From Calothrix sp. NIES-4105 (GTDB lineage Bacteria; Cyanobacteriota; Cyanobacteriia; Cyanobacteriales; Nostocaceae): a DNA stretch of 64,000 nt. The notes below the pieces were generated by a model. It was not told where the DNA came from. It did no database searches and worked only from the letters and a program-made list of their open reading frames with translations. A program made the translations under genes and the position numbers. Location of the stretch: assembly GCF_002368415.1 (NCBI RefSeq), contig NZ_AP018290.1, positions 2,865,614 to 2,929,613 on the forward strand, read 5' to 3'. Below, in pieces: positions 20,116-27,551 of this stretch. The first letter of the stretch is position 1; each line of letters starts with the position of its first letter.

Positions 20116-20321
20116 TTTGCTTACCTGTGTCTGTAGTCAAAAAAATGTTTACTATCAGCAAAAAATAAAGGCGCCACAAATTTATCTTTTCTTTATATAA
20201 ATCGACAAAATCTCTTGCATAAAAACTGAACTACAAACATATAGCTTACTAGTCATAGTCAAGTTGACTTATTGACTTTAGCTTGAATTGTAGATTTACT
20301 TTTGTAAGAAAATTAATCAAG

Positions 20322-20930
20322 ATGAAAATTAAGCTTTATAATCAAGTTTCAAGTTTACTAATCGCAGGATTGGTATTATCGAATTTTGGAACTGTGTCCG
20401 CCTCTATCAAGAATCAAACATTACAGCAACTTAACGGTTCCAGCGAACTATTACTCACACAAAAACAAGCATCAAAAGAAGACTGTATTGCCTTCAACCC
20501 CAATAATATCGCCGTCAAGCAAGTTAACGGTAGCTGGAAAATAGTTGAGAATGGAAATCACTGGATGTTTGACTTTGGCGCCAATAAAGACGAAGCAACA
20601 CGCGCGTTCCAAGTTATCAAACAATACAGCATGAGCAAATCCTGCTTCGTTGGGCGCCCACAACCATCGTTCAAATATCTACTTACAAATAATAATGCCC
20701 CATCTGGCGCCATTCCAGGGGAAGATTGCGTAGCATTTAACCCAGCAACAACAGCTTTAAGTAAAATCAACAACCGTTGGAAAATTGTAGACGGTAATCA
20801 TTGGATGTTTGACTTTAATACTAATAAAGCAGAAGCGGAACAATCCTTAGAGATTATCAAAAAATATAACTTCACCCGTTCCTGCTTCGTTGGTAGACCT
20901 GACCCCAGTTTTACCTACTTACGTAAATAA
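20322..20930 (+). CDS. secreted protein with two tandem EDC-FNP/HWMFDF/CFVGRP repeats
   Basis: 202 residues from ATG 20322, chosen over TTG 20283 because it gives a normal signal peptide (KIKLYNQVSS plus hydrophobic core, cleavage near VSAS). Two repeats of about 60 residues follow. Each has EDC(I/V)AFNP, then W-KIV with a conserved (D/N)GNHWMFDF, then a helix with Glu/Ala, and ends SCFVGRP-PSF-YL. Two Cys per repeat suggest an intra-repeat disulphide. I know this module as recurrent in secreted cyanobacterial proteins but cannot assign a ligand. Repeat 2 differs mainly at surface positions. Confidence 0.78.
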   Translation: MKIKLYNQVSSLLIAGLVLSNFGTVSASIKNQTLQQLNGSSELLLTQKQASKEDCIAFNPNNIAVKQVNGSWKIVENGNHWMFDFGANKDEATRAFQVIKQYSMSKSCFVGRPQPSFKYLLTNNNAPSGAIPGEDCVAFNPATTALSKINNRWKIVDGNHWMFDFNTNKAEAEQSLEIIKKYNFTRSCFVGRPDPSFTYLRK

Positions 20931-20941
20931 CGCAGCATAAA

Positions 20942-21022
20942 TCAATTATAAATAAAGTAACCGCTACTCGCGCCAGGGATTGCAGTAAGTTGGTCAATAA
21001 AATCAACAAAATTTTCTAACAT
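20942..21022 (-). pseudogene. 5' remnant of a DUF6745 gene
   Basis: On the minus strand, ATG 21022 starts MLENFVDFIDQLT, nearly identical to the start of the DUF6745 gene at 22901-23983 (MLENPIDFIDQLT). It then runs into unrelated codons to TGA 20942-20944. The DNA upstream of the ATG (to about 21100) also matches the upstream DNA of the intact gene (23984-24062), at roughly 70% identity by eye. The remnant therefore includes the promoter region. It marks an old duplication followed by deletion. Confidence 0.78.
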
Positions 21023-21200
21023 AAAGCATCACTTACTACGTATAAAAATTAGGTAGCTATATTTACATTGTTACCATCGCATATAAGTAATGCTCAAGCT
21101 TGAACCAAAAATATCTTTGTGATAAAGTGTAGGTATATATTTACAATAACCAACGTTTTGTCAATAAGATGCAAATTCAACCAGGTAGTGAGGCACGAAT

Positions 21201-21797
21201 ATGTCTAAGATGCAGCAAGTGCTGGAACTCGCCCATGATATGGGAGTAATCCGCGCCAAAGACGCGGAAGCAAAAGGAATTCATCGCTCATATCTGAAAC
21301 GTCTTGAGCAGCAAGGACTGCTTATTCGTTCAGCCCGTGGGATTTATACCTTCACAGAAGCAGAAATTACAGAAAGTCATAGCTTGGTGGAAGCTGTTAA
21401 AAGGGTTCCTCATGGAATAATCTGCTTGCTCTCTGCCCTTAGCTTTTATGAACTTACAACCCAGGCTCCTTTTGAAGTATGGCTATCTATAGCTCAGAAA
21501 GCACGGGCGCCTAAAGAAGATATGCTTCCACTACGGATTGTTTATATGTCTGGTCAAGCTTTGGAATCTGGGATTGAGGAGCATGAAATTGAAGGAGTGC
21601 GCGTAAGAGTTTATTCTGTCGCCAAAACAGTTGTAGATTGTTTCAAATTCCGTAACAAAATTGGTCTTGATGTCGCGTTAGAAGCACTACGTTCTGGCGT
21701 GCGCTCTAGAAGCTGCACCATTGACGAGATTTGGCATTATGCAAAAATTTGCCGAATGCAAAATGTAATGCGTCCTTATCTGGAGTCGCTTAAATGA
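21201..21797 (+). CDS. abiEi: AbiEi-family antitoxin / transcriptional regulator
   Basis: A 198-residue protein. The N-terminal winged-helix (residues 1-55) has VIRAKDAEAKGIHRSYLKRLEQQGLL and RSARGIYTF. The C-terminal domain has the AbiEi-type CLLSALSFYELTTQ, a WLSIAQKARAP segment and VRVYSVAKTVVDCFKFRNKIGLDVALEALR. AbiEi binds its own promoter and neutralises the AbiEii nucleotidyltransferase (type IV toxin-antitoxin, phage defence). Its stop TGA 21795-21797 overlaps the ATG of the toxin frame by four bases. The frame is intact. Confidence 0.9.
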   Translation: MSKMQQVLELAHDMGVIRAKDAEAKGIHRSYLKRLEQQGLLIRSARGIYTFTEAEITESHSLVEAVKRVPHGIICLLSALSFYELTTQAPFEVWLSIAQKARAPKEDMLPLRIVYMSGQALESGIEEHEIEGVRVRVYSVAKTVVDCFKFRNKIGLDVALEALRSGVRSRSCTIDEIWHYAKICRMQNVMRPYLESLK

Positions 21798-22718
21798 CTA
21801 AAAAACCACTTCGTAACATCCCAGCTTCGGTTAAAGGACGGTTGCTGCAACTCTCACGCACAGCGACGCGAGGATTTTAATTACCTGCTAACTCGTTATG
21901 CCGCTGACCGTCTTTTGTACAGGTTAAGCCAATCTCCATACAAGCAGCAGTTTATCCTGAAAGGAGCAAGTCTTTTTAGGGTATGGCATGGTGAGCCGCA
22001 TAGAGCCACTAAAGATTTGGACTTGTTAGGTTATGGAGAAAATGAAATTTCATATCTGGAAAAAGTTTTTGCAGAAATTTGCTGCATAGCCTTTAACGAT
22101 GATGGCATTGTCTTTGAGCAAGAAAGTGTGAAGGGTGAAAAAATCAAAGAAGAACAAGAATATGAAGGCGTGCGAATTAAGCTAACGGCTAAACTGGATT
22201 CGATTAGTATCCAGGTTCAAGTAGATGTTGGATTTGGTGATGCAGTTACACCCAAAGCAGAAGAAGCAGAATTTCCTGCTATCTTGGATATGCCTGCTCC
22301 CTGTTTACTTGTCTATCCTCGTGAAACAGTCGTTGCTGAAAAATTTCAGGCAATGGTTGACCTTGGCATCACAAACAGCCGATTAAAAGATTTTTATGAT
22401 ATCTGGTTTCTCTGTCAAAAATTTCAATTCCAGGGAGAAATACTTTGCGAAGCGTTTAAGAATACCTTTAGCCGACGCAAAACAGCATTGCCTATAACCT
22501 TACCCTTCGCTTTAACTTCAGAATTTGCTCTTGATAATGCTAAACAGAAACAATGGAAATCTTTTGTTAATAAGGGACAACTTAAGACAGAAGAGGTTTC
22601 CTTAACTGAAGTTATTACTGTTCTTGGAGAATTTTTAATGCCACCAAGCATTGCAGTAGCGCAAGAACAGAATTTTAGCAAAATATGGATTCCTTCAACA
22701 TACTGGTCTGATAGTTGA
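21794..22718 (+). pseudogene. abiEii: AbiEii/AbiGii-type nucleotidyltransferase toxin, frameshifted near its start
   Basis: ATG 21794 starts MTKKPLRNIPASVKGRLLQL and hits TAA at 21878-21880. Shifting the frame by one base near 21860-21868 restores EDFNYLLTRYAADRLLYRLS and the rest of a nucleotidyltransferase domain: ILKGASLFRVW, TKDLDLLGYG, YPRETVVAEKFQAMVD and LKDFYDIWFL. A TTG at 21915 could still start a 267-residue product that includes the catalytic LKGAS and DLDL motifs. The toxin is therefore broken, or expressed only from an internal start. A sequencing error is the alternative. Confidence 0.85.
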
Positions 22719-22900
22719 AGCTCCTAAATGACGAATGCAATGGTGGCAGCAAAAAAAACATAGCAGGCATGAAAGTATAGTTTTGATAAGTTTTTGTAGC
22801 GCAGGTGCCGTACTTGTGCTGTATTCTCACTCCTAGGCGCCATCAACCATCAACTAACATATCTTATAAACAGCCAAAAGCTTATATTTACGCAAATACA
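22719..22900. other. short intergenic stretch between convergent genes
   Basis: Contains a degenerate GTAGCGCAGGTGCCGTAC word related to the GTAGCACAGGCATCCTG hairpin at 25213, and one GGCGCC. No gene was seen. Confidence 0.5.
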
Positions 22901-23983
22901 TCAACTTTGTACTGCAAAATCTTTTGGCTCAACACCCCAATTTACCCAGCCAATAGCCTCACGAGCAGAACTCATATCAGGTGGAACACGCAACATATGA
23001 ACATGACCTGTACTAGGACAAACCATTTTTAACAAACACATAGGCTCTTGCAACGAAGAACCGTCATCATCTAGCTCAACATAATTATCAACTTTTAACA
23101 AAGTATACTCTTGCCAAGTATCTAACTCAATGGCGCCTAACTCGCGATAAATACGTTCATACCCAATACCTTGAATTAAAACTCGTCGTAGTTCCGCATT
23201 TCGTTCTTCAACTAACCATTGTGCCTTCCACTCATCCGTAAAAACTTCCCCATATTTATTCGGCAGTATAACACCCTGATAAGCATAAACTTTAAAACCA
23301 TCAGCAAACTTTATAGCAGCTTCACCCTCTGCATGGAGGCGATTTTCGCTATCAAATAATAATTTTATTGGACGTTCACATATAAAGCAAATATTTTTAT
23401 AATACATAATCCAGCCACAATACTGCACCAAATCTTTCAGAAGCTGCCATTGCTTTTCTTTATAAGGTAAATGTAGAACAGAAATACAAAAATCATAAAA
23501 GCAACATTCAGGAGTTAAAAAATCAATATTATAAGCGCCCTCCGAATATTCATCAGGGATAGACATATCATCTTCGTCTAACAAATCTTCAAGAACTGAA
23601 TATAAATTAGATATTTGTAAAATCATTTGTAATAACTCTCGTTCCAGAAACGTTCTTTCTTGGATTATTGTTGAATTATGTCTTCGTTCTTCATCATAGT
23701 TAACTAATGGATGCCGTAAATCAGACCTTAACGAAAATTGTAAGTATTGTTTTTCATAATCATATAACTCTTTTAAAGCCTCATACGGGCTATCAACGAA
23801 AATAATTTCCGGCGCCTCAGTGTCGAACCACTGGTAAGCAGCAACTACTGCATCATAAGCTTTTTGTCTATCGAGTCGCTCTGTTGAAAGTGCGATTTTC
23901 TTCCACTTCTCTATGTAAACAGGAATCAAAGCTTCCTGCTCAGGTGTAAGTTGATCAATAAAGTCGATAGGGTTTTCTAGCAT
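22901..23983 (-). CDS. DUF6745-domain protein
   Basis: A 360-residue soluble acidic protein. The start MLENPIDFIDQLTPEQE is followed by a helical region. The conserved C-terminal domain begins near residue 205, with HAEGEAAIKFADGFKVYAYQGV, then QWLVEERNAELRRVLIQGIGYERI, LDTWQEYTLLKVD and HMLRVPPDMSSAREAIGWVNWG. I associate this block with DUF6745; such proteins are often multi-copy in cyanobacteria and have no known function. A decayed copy of its 5' end and promoter lies at 20942-21100. Confidence 0.82.
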   Translation of the reverse strand: MLENPIDFIDQLTPEQEALIPVYIEKWKKIALSTERLDRQKAYDAVVAAYQWFDTEAPEIIFVDSPYEALKELYDYEKQYLQFSLRSDLRHPLVNYDEERRHNSTIIQERTFLERELLQMILQISNLYSVLEDLLDEDDMSIPDEYSEGAYNIDFLTPECCFYDFCISVLHLPYKEKQWQLLKDLVQYCGWIMYYKNICFICERPIKLLFDSENRLHAEGEAAIKFADGFKVYAYQGVILPNKYGEVFTDEWKAQWLVEERNAELRRVLIQGIGYERIYRELGAIELDTWQEYTLLKVDNYVELDDDGSSLQEPMCLLKMVCPSTGHVHMLRVPPDMSSAREAIGWVNWGVEPKDFAVQS

Positions 23984-24113
23984 AACGCATTACTTACTAT
24001 GTATACCGAGAGAGTAGTTATATTTAAATTATTCCCGTTATATTCGAGTAACGCTCAAACTTTTAAAATTTTCAATTGAATTCAACTAAAATCTTGAGTT
24101 GACTATATTTTGT

Positions 24114-24334
24114 TTATTCTCCTAACCATTCTTCGCGAGAAACACGGTTCTTGCCGTAATAACCTTGATAATAAACCTGTGCTAATATCACCCTCGTGGG
24201 GATTAGGAATAATTACAGTCACATCATCACGTCGCATTTGTGGATGCTTGCCGCCTGAGAAAGGACCCTCAAATCCGCTCTTCCTGCAAGCGCCTTACAA
24301 ACTCGCGCCAAGATACAGGTGTTAATCTAGACAT
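24114..24334 (-). pseudogene. hicA: HicA-type mRNA interferase toxin with two frameshifts
   Basis: ATG 24334 starts MSRLTPVSWREFVRRLQE and meets TGA at 24269-24271. A one-base shift near 24277-24285 restores SGFEGPFSGGKHPQM, RRDDVTVIIPNPHEGDI and STGLLSRLLRQ. A second shift near 24141-24153 is needed for the terminal VSREEWLGE and TAA 24114. HicA proteins are about 70-80 residues and carry a catalytic His in GGKH, still present here. The two lesions make a functional product unlikely. The start overlaps the end of hicB by eight bases. Confidence 0.85.
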
Positions 24335-24584
24335 CGTTAGACACAAGCTTGGTTATTTCATTCAGGTTCACACCAGCTATTACAGGAATCATAAGCCCTA
24401 AAAGCAAACGCAGTGCGATCCAATCGCTTAAAGCCTCTCTAAGTTCACGTCTACAGCCTTCAAGGGTTCGATGGCTAGCCCAAACTCCTTGTAAACCGGG
24501 TATTTCACCCCAGTAGGCACCATCATCTTCTATAATTTCATAAACAGCTATTTCCATTGCTTGGTCAATATAGCTTGCCAGCAT
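24327..24584 (-). CDS. hicB: HicB-type antitoxin
   Basis: An intact 85-residue frame. It shows the partial RNase H-like HicB fold: YEIIEDDGAYWGEIPGLQGVW, then ASHRTLEGCRRELREALSDWI and a C-terminal tail ending in SNDV. HicB sequesters the HicA RNase and usually represses the operon. The gene lies upstream of, and overlaps, the disrupted hicA. Order antitoxin then toxin is a known arrangement in cyanobacterial hicBA loci. Confidence 0.87.
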   Translation of the reverse strand: MLASYIDQAMEIAVYEIIEDDGAYWGEIPGLQGVWASHRTLEGCRRELREALSDWIALRLLLGLMIPVIAGVNLNEITKLVSNDV

Positions 24585-24678
24585 GTTAGATTTCTATAAA
24601 CTCCTTAATTAAATAATACCTTAGAATGCGTTTGTACTTGACATATAGCTTACAAATTCTGAAAGTACCTTGCATACA

Positions 24679-24750
24679 GCATTGACGAAATTTGACACTA
24701 TACAAAAATCTGTCGAATGCAGAATGTGATACGTCCTTACCTAGAGCGCT
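24679..24750 (+). pseudogene. 3' fragment of an AbiEi antitoxin gene
   Basis: The DNA matches the end of the abiEi gene (about 21717-21791) at roughly 80% by eye: ATTGACGA-ATTTG, then CAAAAAT-TG-CGAATGCA, then CGTCCTTA-CT-GAG. The fragment has an early in-frame stop and no start. It shows that the AbiE locus, or part of it, was once duplicated across this region. Confidence 0.75.
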
Positions 24751-24827
24751 CTATCTTCTGTATGAAGCCTGTTTGAGCTATCAAAATATAGAATTGAAGT
24801 TGAAATAATATATTTAGGTAGCAAACA

Positions 24828-25193
24828 ATGCCAGCACAGTTTAAGTACGTAATGTTGATGGTCAAGGATGTTCCCTCAGCAGTTAAATTCTACAGCGAAG
24901 GATTAGGGTTAAGTGTAAAAGTTTCTACACCTGGATGGGCTGAAATCGATGCTGGTGGTACTACCATTGCTTTTCATGGTGCAGAGTCAGATGCAGAAAC
25001 TGGTGACTCGCCAATTTTAAGCTTCAATGTCGATGATATTCACGAAGTTATCGCTACACTCGAAAATCTGGGAGGAACACTAGAAGGACGAGTTCGCGAA
25101 CCGTCGTTCGGCAAAGTTGCCGCTGTACGTACACCCGATAAACATTTATTAAGTTTATTGCAACCAGCTACAGTTGGCGCCACTGCCGCTTAG
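24828..25193 (+). CDS. VOC (glyoxalase/bleomycin-resistance fold) family protein
   Basis: 121 residues. It shows the paired beta-alpha-beta-beta-beta modules of the VOC superfamily: YVMLMVKDVPSAVKFYSEGLGL at the start, WAEIDAGGTTIAFHG in module 1, and FNVDDIHEVIATLENLGG, then VRTPDKHLLSLLQP in module 2. Candidate metal ligands are His near residue 45 and acidic residues, but the set is incomplete, so the activity is unclear. ATG 24828 has an AGGTAGC upstream. A hairpin terminator follows at 25213. Confidence 0.87.
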   Translation: MPAQFKYVMLMVKDVPSAVKFYSEGLGLSVKVSTPGWAEIDAGGTTIAFHGAESDAETGDSPILSFNVDDIHEVIATLENLGGTLEGRVREPSFGKVAAVRTPDKHLLSLLQPATVGATAA

Positions 25194-25212
25194 TTTTGAT
25201 AAATTCTTGTAG

Positions 25213-25231
25213 CACAGGCATCCTGCCTGTG
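25213..25231 (+). terminator. hairpin CACAGGCA TCC TGCCTGTG
   Basis: A perfect 8-base stem with a 3-base loop 20 bases after the VOC gene stop, followed by a weak T-rich tract (GTAGTATTTT). The word belongs to a dispersed family also seen, degenerate, near 19575 and 22795. Confidence 0.65.
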
Positions 25232-25427
25232 TAGTATTTTAACCAGAGGCATCATCAAATTACATATCTTATAAATACTCAATTGACTGAACAGCACCAT
25301 TCAAGGGCAAGCCCGAAGGAAACTAGGCTACTGTACAATAAATTAAGGTTTTAAATACATAAGTTAAAAGGTTATATATACCTAATATCTCAGCGTGAGC
25401 AATCTACAAACACTAGGAGCATAGAAT

Positions 25428-25706
25428 ATGAAAATTAAAGGAATAAAGCGAGGTAAAAATATAGAATTGCTTGAGGAAATAGCTATTCCCGATAACCAAG
25501 AAATTATATTAGAAATTTCTAATACAGAAGTTTTAGCAACTTATAAGCTTGAAGTATTAGAACAATCGGCTAGACAGCAAGATAAATTAGATGATTCAGA
25601 AGATATTATCATACAAGACTTTATGAAGATAAGTGAATCCGCATTAGATGAGTACTGGCTTAATGAAGAGGAGGATGAAGCTTGTAAAAATCTCTATAAT
25701 ATTTAA
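25428..25706 (+). CDS. antitoxin of a MazF/PemK-type module
   Basis: A 92-residue intact frame. The N-terminus MKIKGIKRGKNIELLEEIAIPDNQEI resembles the short beta-hairpin DNA-binding start of small cyanobacterial antitoxins. The C-terminus is acidic (ALDEYWLNEEEDEA), as in toxin-wrapping tails. The identification rests mainly on the disrupted MazF-like gene that overlaps its end. Confidence 0.7.
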   Translation: MKIKGIKRGKNIELLEEIAIPDNQEIILEISNTEVLATYKLEVLEQSARQQDKLDDSEDIIIQDFMKISESALDEYWLNEEEDEACKNLYNI

Positions 25707-26080
25707 CCAAGGGCAATGTAATCGTAATTAATTACCCTTTTTCAGATGGTTTAAATAGCAAGAAAAGACCTGCTGTAGTTGCTATATTTGGCAGCAATAT
25801 AATCGTCTGTGTTATTACCAGTAAATCTGGTAGATAAAAAGAAATTAAATTAGAAGATGAAGATTTTTTAATTGGCAAATTAGATTTAATTTCTTATGTA
25901 CACCCTACTGCTATTTATACTGCTAAAAAAAGCACGGCGATACGTAAACTAGGTAGTCTTAAAGATGGAAAAGTAAACGAAGTGACTACAGCAATTATAG
26001 AAATTTTACAACAGGCGCCAAGTTCTATACCTCCAGCATCTAGAGCTTTAGAACGCGGTAGACCTCCTAAAACTGAGTAA
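25684..26080 (+). pseudogene. MazF/PemK-family endoribonuclease toxin, disrupted
   Basis: In the frame starting near 25684 the DNA reads KISIIFNQG, then needs a one-base shift at a GGG (about 25711-25713) to continue with NVIVINYPFSDGLNSKKRPAVV and VCVITSKSGR. Codon 25835-25837 is TAA in frame, and the frame then continues with KEIKLEDEDF, SYVHPTAIYT and GKVNEVTTAIIEIL to TAA 26078. NYPFSDG and KKRPAVV are typical of MazF/PemK. No ATG/GTG start remains (GTA at the expected place). It has a frameshift, a nonsense codon and start loss, so it is a pseudogene. Confidence 0.83.
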
Positions 26081-26119: not shown

Positions 26120-26178
26120 ATGTAAGGTGGGCACCGCCCATTATATCAAGGTTTTGGTGGGCAGTGCCCACCTTACAT
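26120..26178. repeat. long inverted repeat of the GGTGGGCACTGCCCACC family
   Basis: 21-base arms at 26120-26140 and 26158-26178 with one mismatch; each arm is itself a near-palindrome. It sits between the convergent mazF remnant and glcF. At 26082-26097 the sequence TATAGCAGTCCTAAAT equals the left end of the MITE at 4881. Confidence 0.78.
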
Positions 26179-26198: not shown

Positions 26199-27551
26199 TC
26201 AACTTAATTTTTCACCGCGAATTGCATAATCTAATAATTCTATTGGATGCATTACTTCAACATTTTTACCTTGCGCTTTTAGATGTTTGGTAATTTGCAG
26301 CGTGCATCCTGGGTTTGCTGATGCTATTAGCTCGGCGCCTGTATTTAATAAGTTTTGCACTTTTTGCTCTCCCAGTTCTTCTGCTACTTCTGGTTGCAGC
26401 ATGTTATATACACCAGCACTTCCACAGCATAATGCCGCATCCAATGGTTCTTTTAATTTGATGTTTGGTATTTGACGTAGTAGTTGACGCGGTTGGATGC
26501 TGATTTTTTGACCGTGTAATAGGTGACATGCATCTTGATACACTAATGTCAAGGGTTTTTCTGTAATTGGTGATAGTTTTGTTGTTAAACCGATGGTTGC
26601 TAAAAATTCTTGGGCATCTCTGACTTTTGCGGCAAATTGTTTGGCTTTTTCGCTGTATTCCGGGTCGTTTTCTAAAATGTGACCGTATTCTTTTAAGGTA
26701 TGACCGCAACCTGCTGCATTAATAATTACATAATCAACGTTGGTATCGGCGAAGCTGTCTATCATTTGCCTTGCTAACGCTTGCGCTTGTTGGGTTTGTC
26801 CTTGGTGTTCGGGTAGTGCAGCGCAACATCCTTGTGTTTTGGGTATTACTACTTCACATCCATTTGCTGTTAATACTCGTACTGTTGCTTCGTTAACTGG
26901 TGAGAAGAATAAGCGTTGTACACAGCCTAAGATTACACCAACACGGTAACGTTTTTCTCCTTGGGCTGGAATGATTGTTGGTAAATTGCTTTGAAATGAT
27001 TTTAAGGTAATTTCTGGTAATATCGAATCCATTGCCGCTAGGCGAGGTGATATTAGTTTGAGTAAACCTGTCGCGCGCACTAATTTTTGTAATCCTAGTT
27101 TTTGGTAGATAAATAATGGAACTAGGAAAACACGTAATAGGTTTGGGTAAGGAAATAGGGTGAAGATTATTTTACGTATTAAGGTGTCAAACCAGTTGCG
27201 AGGGTAGTTACGTTCGACTTGATGACGAGTTGCGGATATTAATTTATCGTACTGAACTCCTGAAGGACAAGTAGTTACACAGGCAAGACATCCTAAACAT
27301 GAGTCAAAGTGTTGTGCGGATGCTTCGTTTAGTGCTATTTCTCCAGTATTTATTGCGTCCATTAAATAGATACGTCCGCGCGGGGAGTCCATTTCTTTGC
27401 CTAGAACTCTATAGCTTGGACATGTTGACAGACAAAACCCACAGTGGACACAACTGTCTATAAGTTTGGGGTCGGGTGGGTGGTTTGCGTCAAACCCTTT
27501 GAGGTTTTTTATATTGGCAGTTTCGTTAGTAGAATTTTCTGAAGTTTGCAT
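26199..27551 (-). CDS. glcF: glycolate dehydrogenase iron-sulfur subunit GlcF
   Basis: 450 residues. Two 4Fe-4S motifs lie near the N-terminus: CVHCGFCLSTCP (about residue 35) and CLGCLACVTTCP (about residue 85). The C-terminal half has two Cys-rich modules with GCCAALPEHQG and CCGSAGVYN, as in GlcF/heterodisulfide-reductase-like subunits. The complex oxidises the photorespiratory product glycolate to glyoxylate, passing electrons to the membrane quinone pool. The catalytic GlcD subunit is not in the window. It is transcribed behind glcE, separated by a 22-bp tandem repeat that occupies its leader. Confidence 0.92.
   Translation of the reverse strand: MQTSENSTNETANIKNLKGFDANHPPDPKLIDSCVHCGFCLSTCPSYRVLGKEMDSPRGRIYLMDAINTGEIALNEASAQHFDSCLGCLACVTTCPSGVQYDKLISATRHQVERNYPRNWFDTLIRKIIFTLFPYPNLLRVFLVPLFIYQKLGLQKLVRATGLLKLISPRLAAMDSILPEITLKSFQSNLPTIIPAQGEKRYRVGVILGCVQRLFFSPVNEATVRVLTANGCEVVIPKTQGCCAALPEHQGQTQQAQALARQMIDSFADTNVDYVIINAAGCGHTLKEYGHILENDPEYSEKAKQFAAKVRDAQEFLATIGLTTKLSPITEKPLTLVYQDACHLLHGQKISIQPRQLLRQIPNIKLKEPLDAALCCGSAGVYNMLQPEVAEELGEQKVQNLLNTGAELIASANPGCTLQITKHLKAQGKNVEVMHPIELLDYAIRGEKLS

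Follow-up and report, generated by a model that had tools for sequence, protein, structure and literature searches.

Damaged toxin genes beside open antitoxin genes in Calothrix sp. NIES-4105: probable toxin-first decay at a site of high turnover

Three toxin-antitoxin pairs within about 5 kb

The genome of the cyanobacterium Calothrix sp. NIES-4105 comprises 12.04 Mb on 8 contigs. The 64,000 nucleotides analysed here (positions 2,865,614 to 2,929,613 of NZ_AP018290.1, in the following termed the window) belong to its 11.06-Mb contig and harbor three toxin-antitoxin (TA) pairs in about 5 kb. These are AbiEi/AbiEii (21201-22718), HicB/HicA (24114-24584, minus strand) and a MazF-like gene with its antitoxin (25428-26080). 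The analysis confirmed that all three pairs are real and that each combines a damaged toxin with an open antitoxin (Table 1). A preliminary description, made from the sequence alone, had stated that only toxins are broken in these 5 kb, which holds for the three pairs and fails for a remnant of a further AbiEi gene.

Table 1. Features of the 5-kb segment in window coordinates
Feature	Position	Strand	State	Support
AbiEi antitoxin	21201..21797	+	open, 198 aa	PF13338, 44.1 bits, above cut-off
AbiEii toxin gene	21794..22718	+	frame change within first ~30 codons, rest open	PF08843, 167.4 bits
DUF6745 protein gene	22901..23983	-		PF20530, 90.7 bits
HicA toxin gene	24114..24334	-	pieces in three frames (two frame changes)	frame analysis
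HicB antitoxin (UPF0150-like)	24327..24584	-	open, 85 aa	PF21748, 99.4 bits, above cut-off
AbiEi 3′ remnant	24677..24750	+	broken antitoxin, no AbiEii adjoining	82.7% to 21716-21790, E 4e-15 (self-alignment)
Glyoxalase-superfamily gene	24828..25193	+	open	PF00903, 44.9 bits
Antitoxin of the MazF-like gene	25428..25706	+	open, 92 aa	86% identical to G003 copy
MazF/PemK-like toxin gene	25682..26080	+	three premature in-frame stops, one codon lost	PF02452, 30.2 bits, above cut-off

In the AbiE pair, the description of an intact AbiEi and a frameshifted AbiEii was borne out, the toxin being spread over two frames, but the disturbance is confined to the beginning of the gene. The ATG of AbiEii overlaps the AbiEi stop codon, and the order of the two genes is that of AbiE systems (type IV TA); the uninterrupted AbiEii of such systems is missing from the window. 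It is present in G004, G028 and G043 (G numbers denote genomes and L numbers loci). The AbiEi protein is 92% identical to the copies in G002 and G004. From a total of 58 AbiE-related loci, examination covered the 21 from cyanobacteria. All 21 have AbiEi as an open reading frame (ORF) of 198-217 aa, and AbiEii stops at 224 aa in L225. A polarisation of the AbiE substitutions with G028 as outgroup was set aside because counts were few and many substitutions lacked an assignment.

The AbiEii lesion lies only upstream of the domain, since an ORF from the TTG at 21915 covers positions 3-223 of 238 of the PF08843 profile, and a shortened product is therefore possible. Judged from these reading frames, AbiEii might still be alive, either as this shortened protein or via frameshifting, so that one of the three pairs would still work. 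Such an outcome, which we regard as unlikely, would agree with the open remaining frame, with the substitution ratios reported below for this region (0.15 and 0.18), and with the lesion in G002, which likewise affects the N-terminal stretch. Against it, each of the 21 cyanobacterial loci encodes the N-terminal segment, with an interruption in L205 alone (the record matching G002).

The AbiEi remnant contains one TGA and is broken, and thus antitoxins in the 5-kb island break as well. In G006, a match (L057, window 24701-25245) covers 50 of its 74 bases. Elsewhere in the own genome, L052 and L053 each hold an AbiE-like pair; the two are similar, their upstream proteins measure 372 and 362 aa, and the AbiEii-like toxin of L053 carries one TAA.

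For the second pair, a candidate HicBA system (type II TA), an intact HicB and two frameshifts in HicA had been described. HicB is open and HicA lies in three frames, but the HicB stop codon is located four codons past that of the 4 relatives compared. A HicA piece reached 15.3 bits against PF07927, under the cut-off, and 25 bits in the genome search (cut-off 27); by eye, the pieces resemble the intact HicA of G033, G024 and G055. The HicA gene of G006 is broken too, by a different lesion, as it is cut and runs on into DUF6745 sequence.

The MazF-like gene was said to combine a frameshift, an internal TAA and a missing start with an intact partner. The open antitoxin and the internal TAA were recovered; a frameshift was rejected, because the frame is kept throughout in comparison with the closest relative found, that of G003, with the gene being one codon shorter. 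The start of the relatives is a TTG or ATG overlapping the antitoxin 3′ end, and the window retains this TTG (25682-25684), but in-frame TAAs follow at 25685-25687 and 25697-25699. The third TAA (25835-25837) is located inside the PF02452 match, which spans profile positions 2-109, and the uninterrupted PemK domain of MazF/PemK systems (type II TA) is accordingly absent. Neither Pfam nor NCBIfam yielded a match to the antitoxin itself at E 0.1. A tryptophan near its C-terminus, common to the relatives seen, is changed, and the stop codon has moved, adding three codons compared with most relatives seen. Because both HicB and this antitoxin outrun the stop codons of their relatives, the term "intact" is slightly generous.

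Nineteen loci of the MazF antitoxin family were inspected. Intact pairs occur in G003 and G004 (L115), and four genomes of other genera (G009, G018, G024, G033) show an open antitoxin with a MazF stub of 27-43 codons. A common breakpoint of the four stubs was rejected, as their similarity to the intact genes ends after codons 27-43 and differing sequence follows. G028 (L106) and a second copy in the own genome (L132) have an open antitoxin with no toxin detected, L118 and L120 yielded no usable ORFs, and the remaining loci match the N-terminal part of the antitoxin only and mostly adjoin other kinds of genes. In several genomes, the N-terminal third matches small genes preceding other genes (PIN-like by eye), and the C-terminal part matches MazF antitoxins; by these similarities, the antitoxin at 25428-25706 may possibly be a chimera.

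Genome-wide survey of broken partners

At 64 of the 93 loci kept in a survey of the window's own genome, both partners are intact (HicA 6, PemK 19, ParE 14, PIN 24, AbiE 1). The toxin is broken beside an open antitoxin at 23 loci (HicA 5, PemK 6, ParE 5, PIN 5, AbiE 2), and at 5 loci the toxin is broken and the antitoxin is broken or was not found (HicA 3, ParE 2). A recognisably broken antitoxin beside an intact toxin was seen at none of the 93 kept loci. Since the survey was anchored on toxin-family matches, such a case could have shown up. If lesions were proportional to coding length (toxin lengths being partly approximate), the probability that 23 of 23 one-sided lesions hit the toxin would be ~1e-6. 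The three of three pairs in the window are weak evidence on their own (1 in 8 if either partner were equally likely to be broken) and become significant because of the genome-wide count.

The matches underlying these counts comprise HicA (16), AbiEii (5), PemK (26 rows for 25 genes, L097 and L103 being one gene), ParE (22) and PIN (51, of which the best-scoring 30, those with loci, were scored). Altogether, 98 loci were examined and 5 dropped, namely L047 and L048 (under the HicA cut-off and not HicA-like by eye), L193 (a partnerless PIN protein of 369 aa), and L050 and L051 (AbiEii family without AbiEi). Scoring was done by a script followed by correction by eye, which was not blind. Partners were assigned from their position and length and, except for PIN, from visual inspection instead of by family libraries, and some "antitoxins" may therefore be other small genes. 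Among random anchors, 397 of 1920 had an upstream ORF of at least 50 aa on the same strand, from which it follows that chance ORFs do not make up most of the open antitoxins next to dead toxins. The corrections concerned L045 and L049 (the window's broken toxins), L096 (upstream antitoxin missed by the script), L037 (HicB downstream), L041 and L158 (downstream ORFs that are not antitoxins) and L174 (antitoxin with an N-terminal stop). L094 and L100 were kept as intact despite doubtful C-termini, and L066, with HicB and a possible HicA remnant, was left uncounted. All 135 family matches are located on contig C1, although ~11 would be expected by length on contigs C2-C8 (~8% of the genome).

Sequencing or assembly artefacts can take the form of small frame changes and single stops. 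The preliminary description had argued against this source, and the one-sidedness of the survey (23 versus 0) together with independent lesions in relatives makes it highly unlikely. Errors should strike antitoxins too, and broken ones were seen only beside broken or missing toxins. In addition, truncations are found among the lesions, and homopolymers reach no more than 3-5 bases in the four lesion stretches that were checked. Directly after the MazF-like pair, a glycolate-oxidase-like gene starts at 26199, which we take to be glcF; this adjoining gene of 450 codons is open, as is the glyoxalase gene.

Successive stages in related genomes

Comparison with related genomes, which the preliminary description had asked for, revealed independent toxin lesions and intact pairs at the same loci. 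The AbiE pair is intact in G004, carries a stop in the toxin in G002 and a frame change in the toxin in the window. For the MazF pair, the toxin frame is open in G003 and interrupted by stops in the window, and at this site in G004 only the toxin 3′ tail, without antitoxin, was matched.

Another two loci were traced through seven genomes each, among them the own genome. At L097, the pair is intact in G005, the toxin is frameshifted in the own genome, and G003 and G002 have an open antitoxin with no toxin in the match; G001, G004 and G006 gave no match. At L042, the pair is intact in G003 and the toxin truncated in the own genome; in G004, the antitoxin has a small internal deletion and the match contains no toxin, G002 has a fragment of the antitoxin HicB, and no match was found in G001, G005 and G006. 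Decayed antitoxins are represented by the AbiEi remnant, the HicB copies at L041 and L071, the antitoxin of L174 and the HicB fragment of L042 in G002. Genomes of the same genus show what would be successive stages of toxin-first decay.

Timing of the lesions and the fate of the antitoxins

Ratios of nonsynonymous to synonymous substitution rates (dN/dS) were calculated pairwise between the window and relatives. For AbiEi, they amount to 0.13 and 0.11 (versus G002 and G004) and for AbiEii downstream of the lesion to 0.15 and 0.18; in comparison with G003, the MazF antitoxin reaches 0.20 and MazF 0.15. HicB shows 0.13 versus G006, with HicA broken in both genomes. The glyoxalase gene (0.04-0.05 versus G002, G003 and G006) and the glcF-like gene (0.03-0.04, five genomes) are lower. 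Bootstrap ranges of toxins and antitoxins overlap. As the antitoxins and the measured toxins are equally low, the values stem from the period preceding the lesions and are hardly informative on constraint on the antitoxins after toxin loss. The lesions in the window look recent, since the toxin regions are still at 0.15-0.18.

These values bear on the proposal that antitoxins are kept by selection after toxin loss, either as anti-addiction modules that counter plasmids or phages or because they regulate other loci. The dN/dS check put forward for this purpose in the preliminary description found low values for the antitoxins (0.11-0.20) and does not separate them from the toxins; low antitoxin dN/dS was accordingly rejected as proof of retention. 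The proposal agrees with the open antitoxins beside MazF stubs, with the open L097 antitoxin lacking a toxin in G002 and G003, with the HicB value obtained where HicA is broken on both sides, and with a 70% identical AbiEii on a cyanobacterial plasmid. A search for relatives on plasmids gave AbiEii in 638 of 72,556 records, this one being the only record above 60% identity. Against the proposal, the search returned at E 1e-5 only 2 of 72,556 records for HicB and 1 of 72,556 for MazF, the antitoxins decay too, and all toxin-family matches of the own genome are on contig C1. Taken together, retention by selection appears improbable. The more specific idea that the lineage quickly disarms incoming TA pairs and keeps solitary antitoxins as standing immunity against plasmids or phages with the same toxins would be quite improbable as well.

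The site and its neighbours

Along the 5 kb, AbiEi/AbiEii on the plus strand is followed by the DUF6745 gene, which sits between the modules, and HicB/HicA on the minus strand, then by the glyoxalase gene and finally by the MazF-like pair on the plus strand. The same site was retrieved from five genomes of the genus (G002-G006), and the glcF-like neighbour is present in all five. The content of the site varies among them, with differing subsets of AbiE, HicBA, MazF, DUF6745 and glyoxalase sequence. Sequence related to DUF6745 is present at the site in relatives, in G006 joined to the truncated HicA, and the glyoxalase gene is a neighbour also in G002, G003 and G006. Scans of the window with Rfam (gathering threshold) and for tRNAs gave no matches.

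Just 3′ of the MazF remnant, an inverted-repeat element (26120-26178) with related copies elsewhere in the own and other searched genomes looks like a dispersed miniature repeat. Upstream of AbiEi, the stretch 20985-21101 shows 73.5% similarity to 23946-24062, where the DUF6745 gene has its 5′ end and upstream region, and is likely the remnant of a second DUF6745 copy. The ORF at 20283-20930 consists of two similar halves (DNA repeats 20535-20653 and 20778-20893, 70.6%).

Toxin-first decay as the probable explanation

The best explanation, which we consider probable, is an ordinary toxin-first decay of chromosomal TA pairs in an intergenic site of high turnover. Damage to the toxin before the antitoxin is the expected and already described order of decay and not a new mechanism. 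TA pairs would arrive at such a site, give little or no lasting benefit and become inactivated. If the antitoxin were hit first, the toxin would stay active and the lesion would be selected out, and hence the first fixed lesion would nearly always be located in the toxin; the antitoxin would then be free to drift and decay later. The toxin would fail first because, once deprived of its antitoxin, an active toxin damages the cell that carries it. The toxins were, we infer, active on acquisition, and the antitoxins would now be near neutral.

The expectation of the preliminary description that random decay should hit both partners overlooks this selection against cells in which the antitoxin is lost and the toxin still active. 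One of the options it offered, a need for the toxin to be lost first, is supported by the genome-wide count and the staged relatives. Its other option, selection that keeps the antitoxins, is weakened by the equally low toxin values and by the decay of antitoxins, and nothing in these data requires it.

Several points weigh against toxin-first decay. One of the 93 loci, L172, has an open toxin-like gene without recognised antitoxin (ParE-like, 22.4 bits, cut-off 23); counted as antitoxin loss, it changes the ratio to 23 of 24 (1.5e-5), and together with the two AbiEii-family proteins without AbiEi (L050, L051) to 23 of 26 (4e-4). In four other genera, the antitoxins that remain open next to a MazF stub could reflect long retention, to judge from their reading frames. 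Orphan toxins are reported to be abundant as well in 950 E. coli genomes (PMC10790755), and a marine survey likewise reports many (PMC12654330). Finally, selection against toxins, or antitoxins kept for another role, would give the same asymmetry, and the data do not separate these from toxin-first decay. As to its layout, the L172 gene lies at 1492-1779 in the minus-strand orientation of the locus, and the partner chosen by the script is an unrelated 351-aa ORF.

Active selection against toxins would mean that they are costly in the lineage or in culture and that toxin-null mutants sweep. A broken toxin at 28 of the 93 kept loci is consistent with this, as are the 15 broken toxins with an in-frame stop inside the matched stretch, 13 of which have exactly one stop, suggesting recent inactivation. 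Neutral loss of useless toxins predicts the same, and we regard active selection as a doubtful cause.

The survey quantifies an order of loss for which the case usually rests on individual loci, with 23 toxin-only cases versus none with a recognisably broken antitoxin and an intact toxin in one genome. The staged series within the genus could serve to date and test what becomes of antitoxins once the toxin is lost. The results also caution against taking the open frame of an antitoxin next to a dead toxin as a sign of function.

Comparison with known systems

The chromosomal ccdO157 locus of E. coli loses its addictive property by degenerative mutation (Mine et al. 2009, as summarised in the reviews PMC2654758 and PMC7167474). 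As summarised there, it resembles the present case in being a decaying chromosomal TA locus; in contrast, several families were counted here as pairs within one cyanobacterium. The anti-addiction idea holds that a chromosomal antitoxin could neutralise a plasmid toxin (Saavedra De Bast et al. 2008, as summarised in the same reviews). Such modules share with the window an antitoxin left on the chromosome, but plasmid relatives are scarce for two of our three pairs, and neutralisation by the window antitoxins is putative.

According to the survey reports, orphan antitoxins are common in Klebsiella (PMC7192599) and E. coli (PMC10790755), and the explanations offered include degraded pairs (PMC7192599) as well as anti-addiction and regulation (PMC7192599, PMC10790755). 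In the titles and abstract openings of the literature covered, we found no count of toxin-broken versus antitoxin-broken pairs for one cyanobacterial genome, which is not proof of absence. Antitoxins without a working toxin are common in these surveys and in the present genome. The E. coli survey, as reported, differs by its many orphan toxins, as there are at most a few here (L172, L050, L051). Furthermore, both surveys, as far as their reports describe them, counted by ORF rules, whereas in the window's genome the toxin remnants were traced beside the antitoxin.

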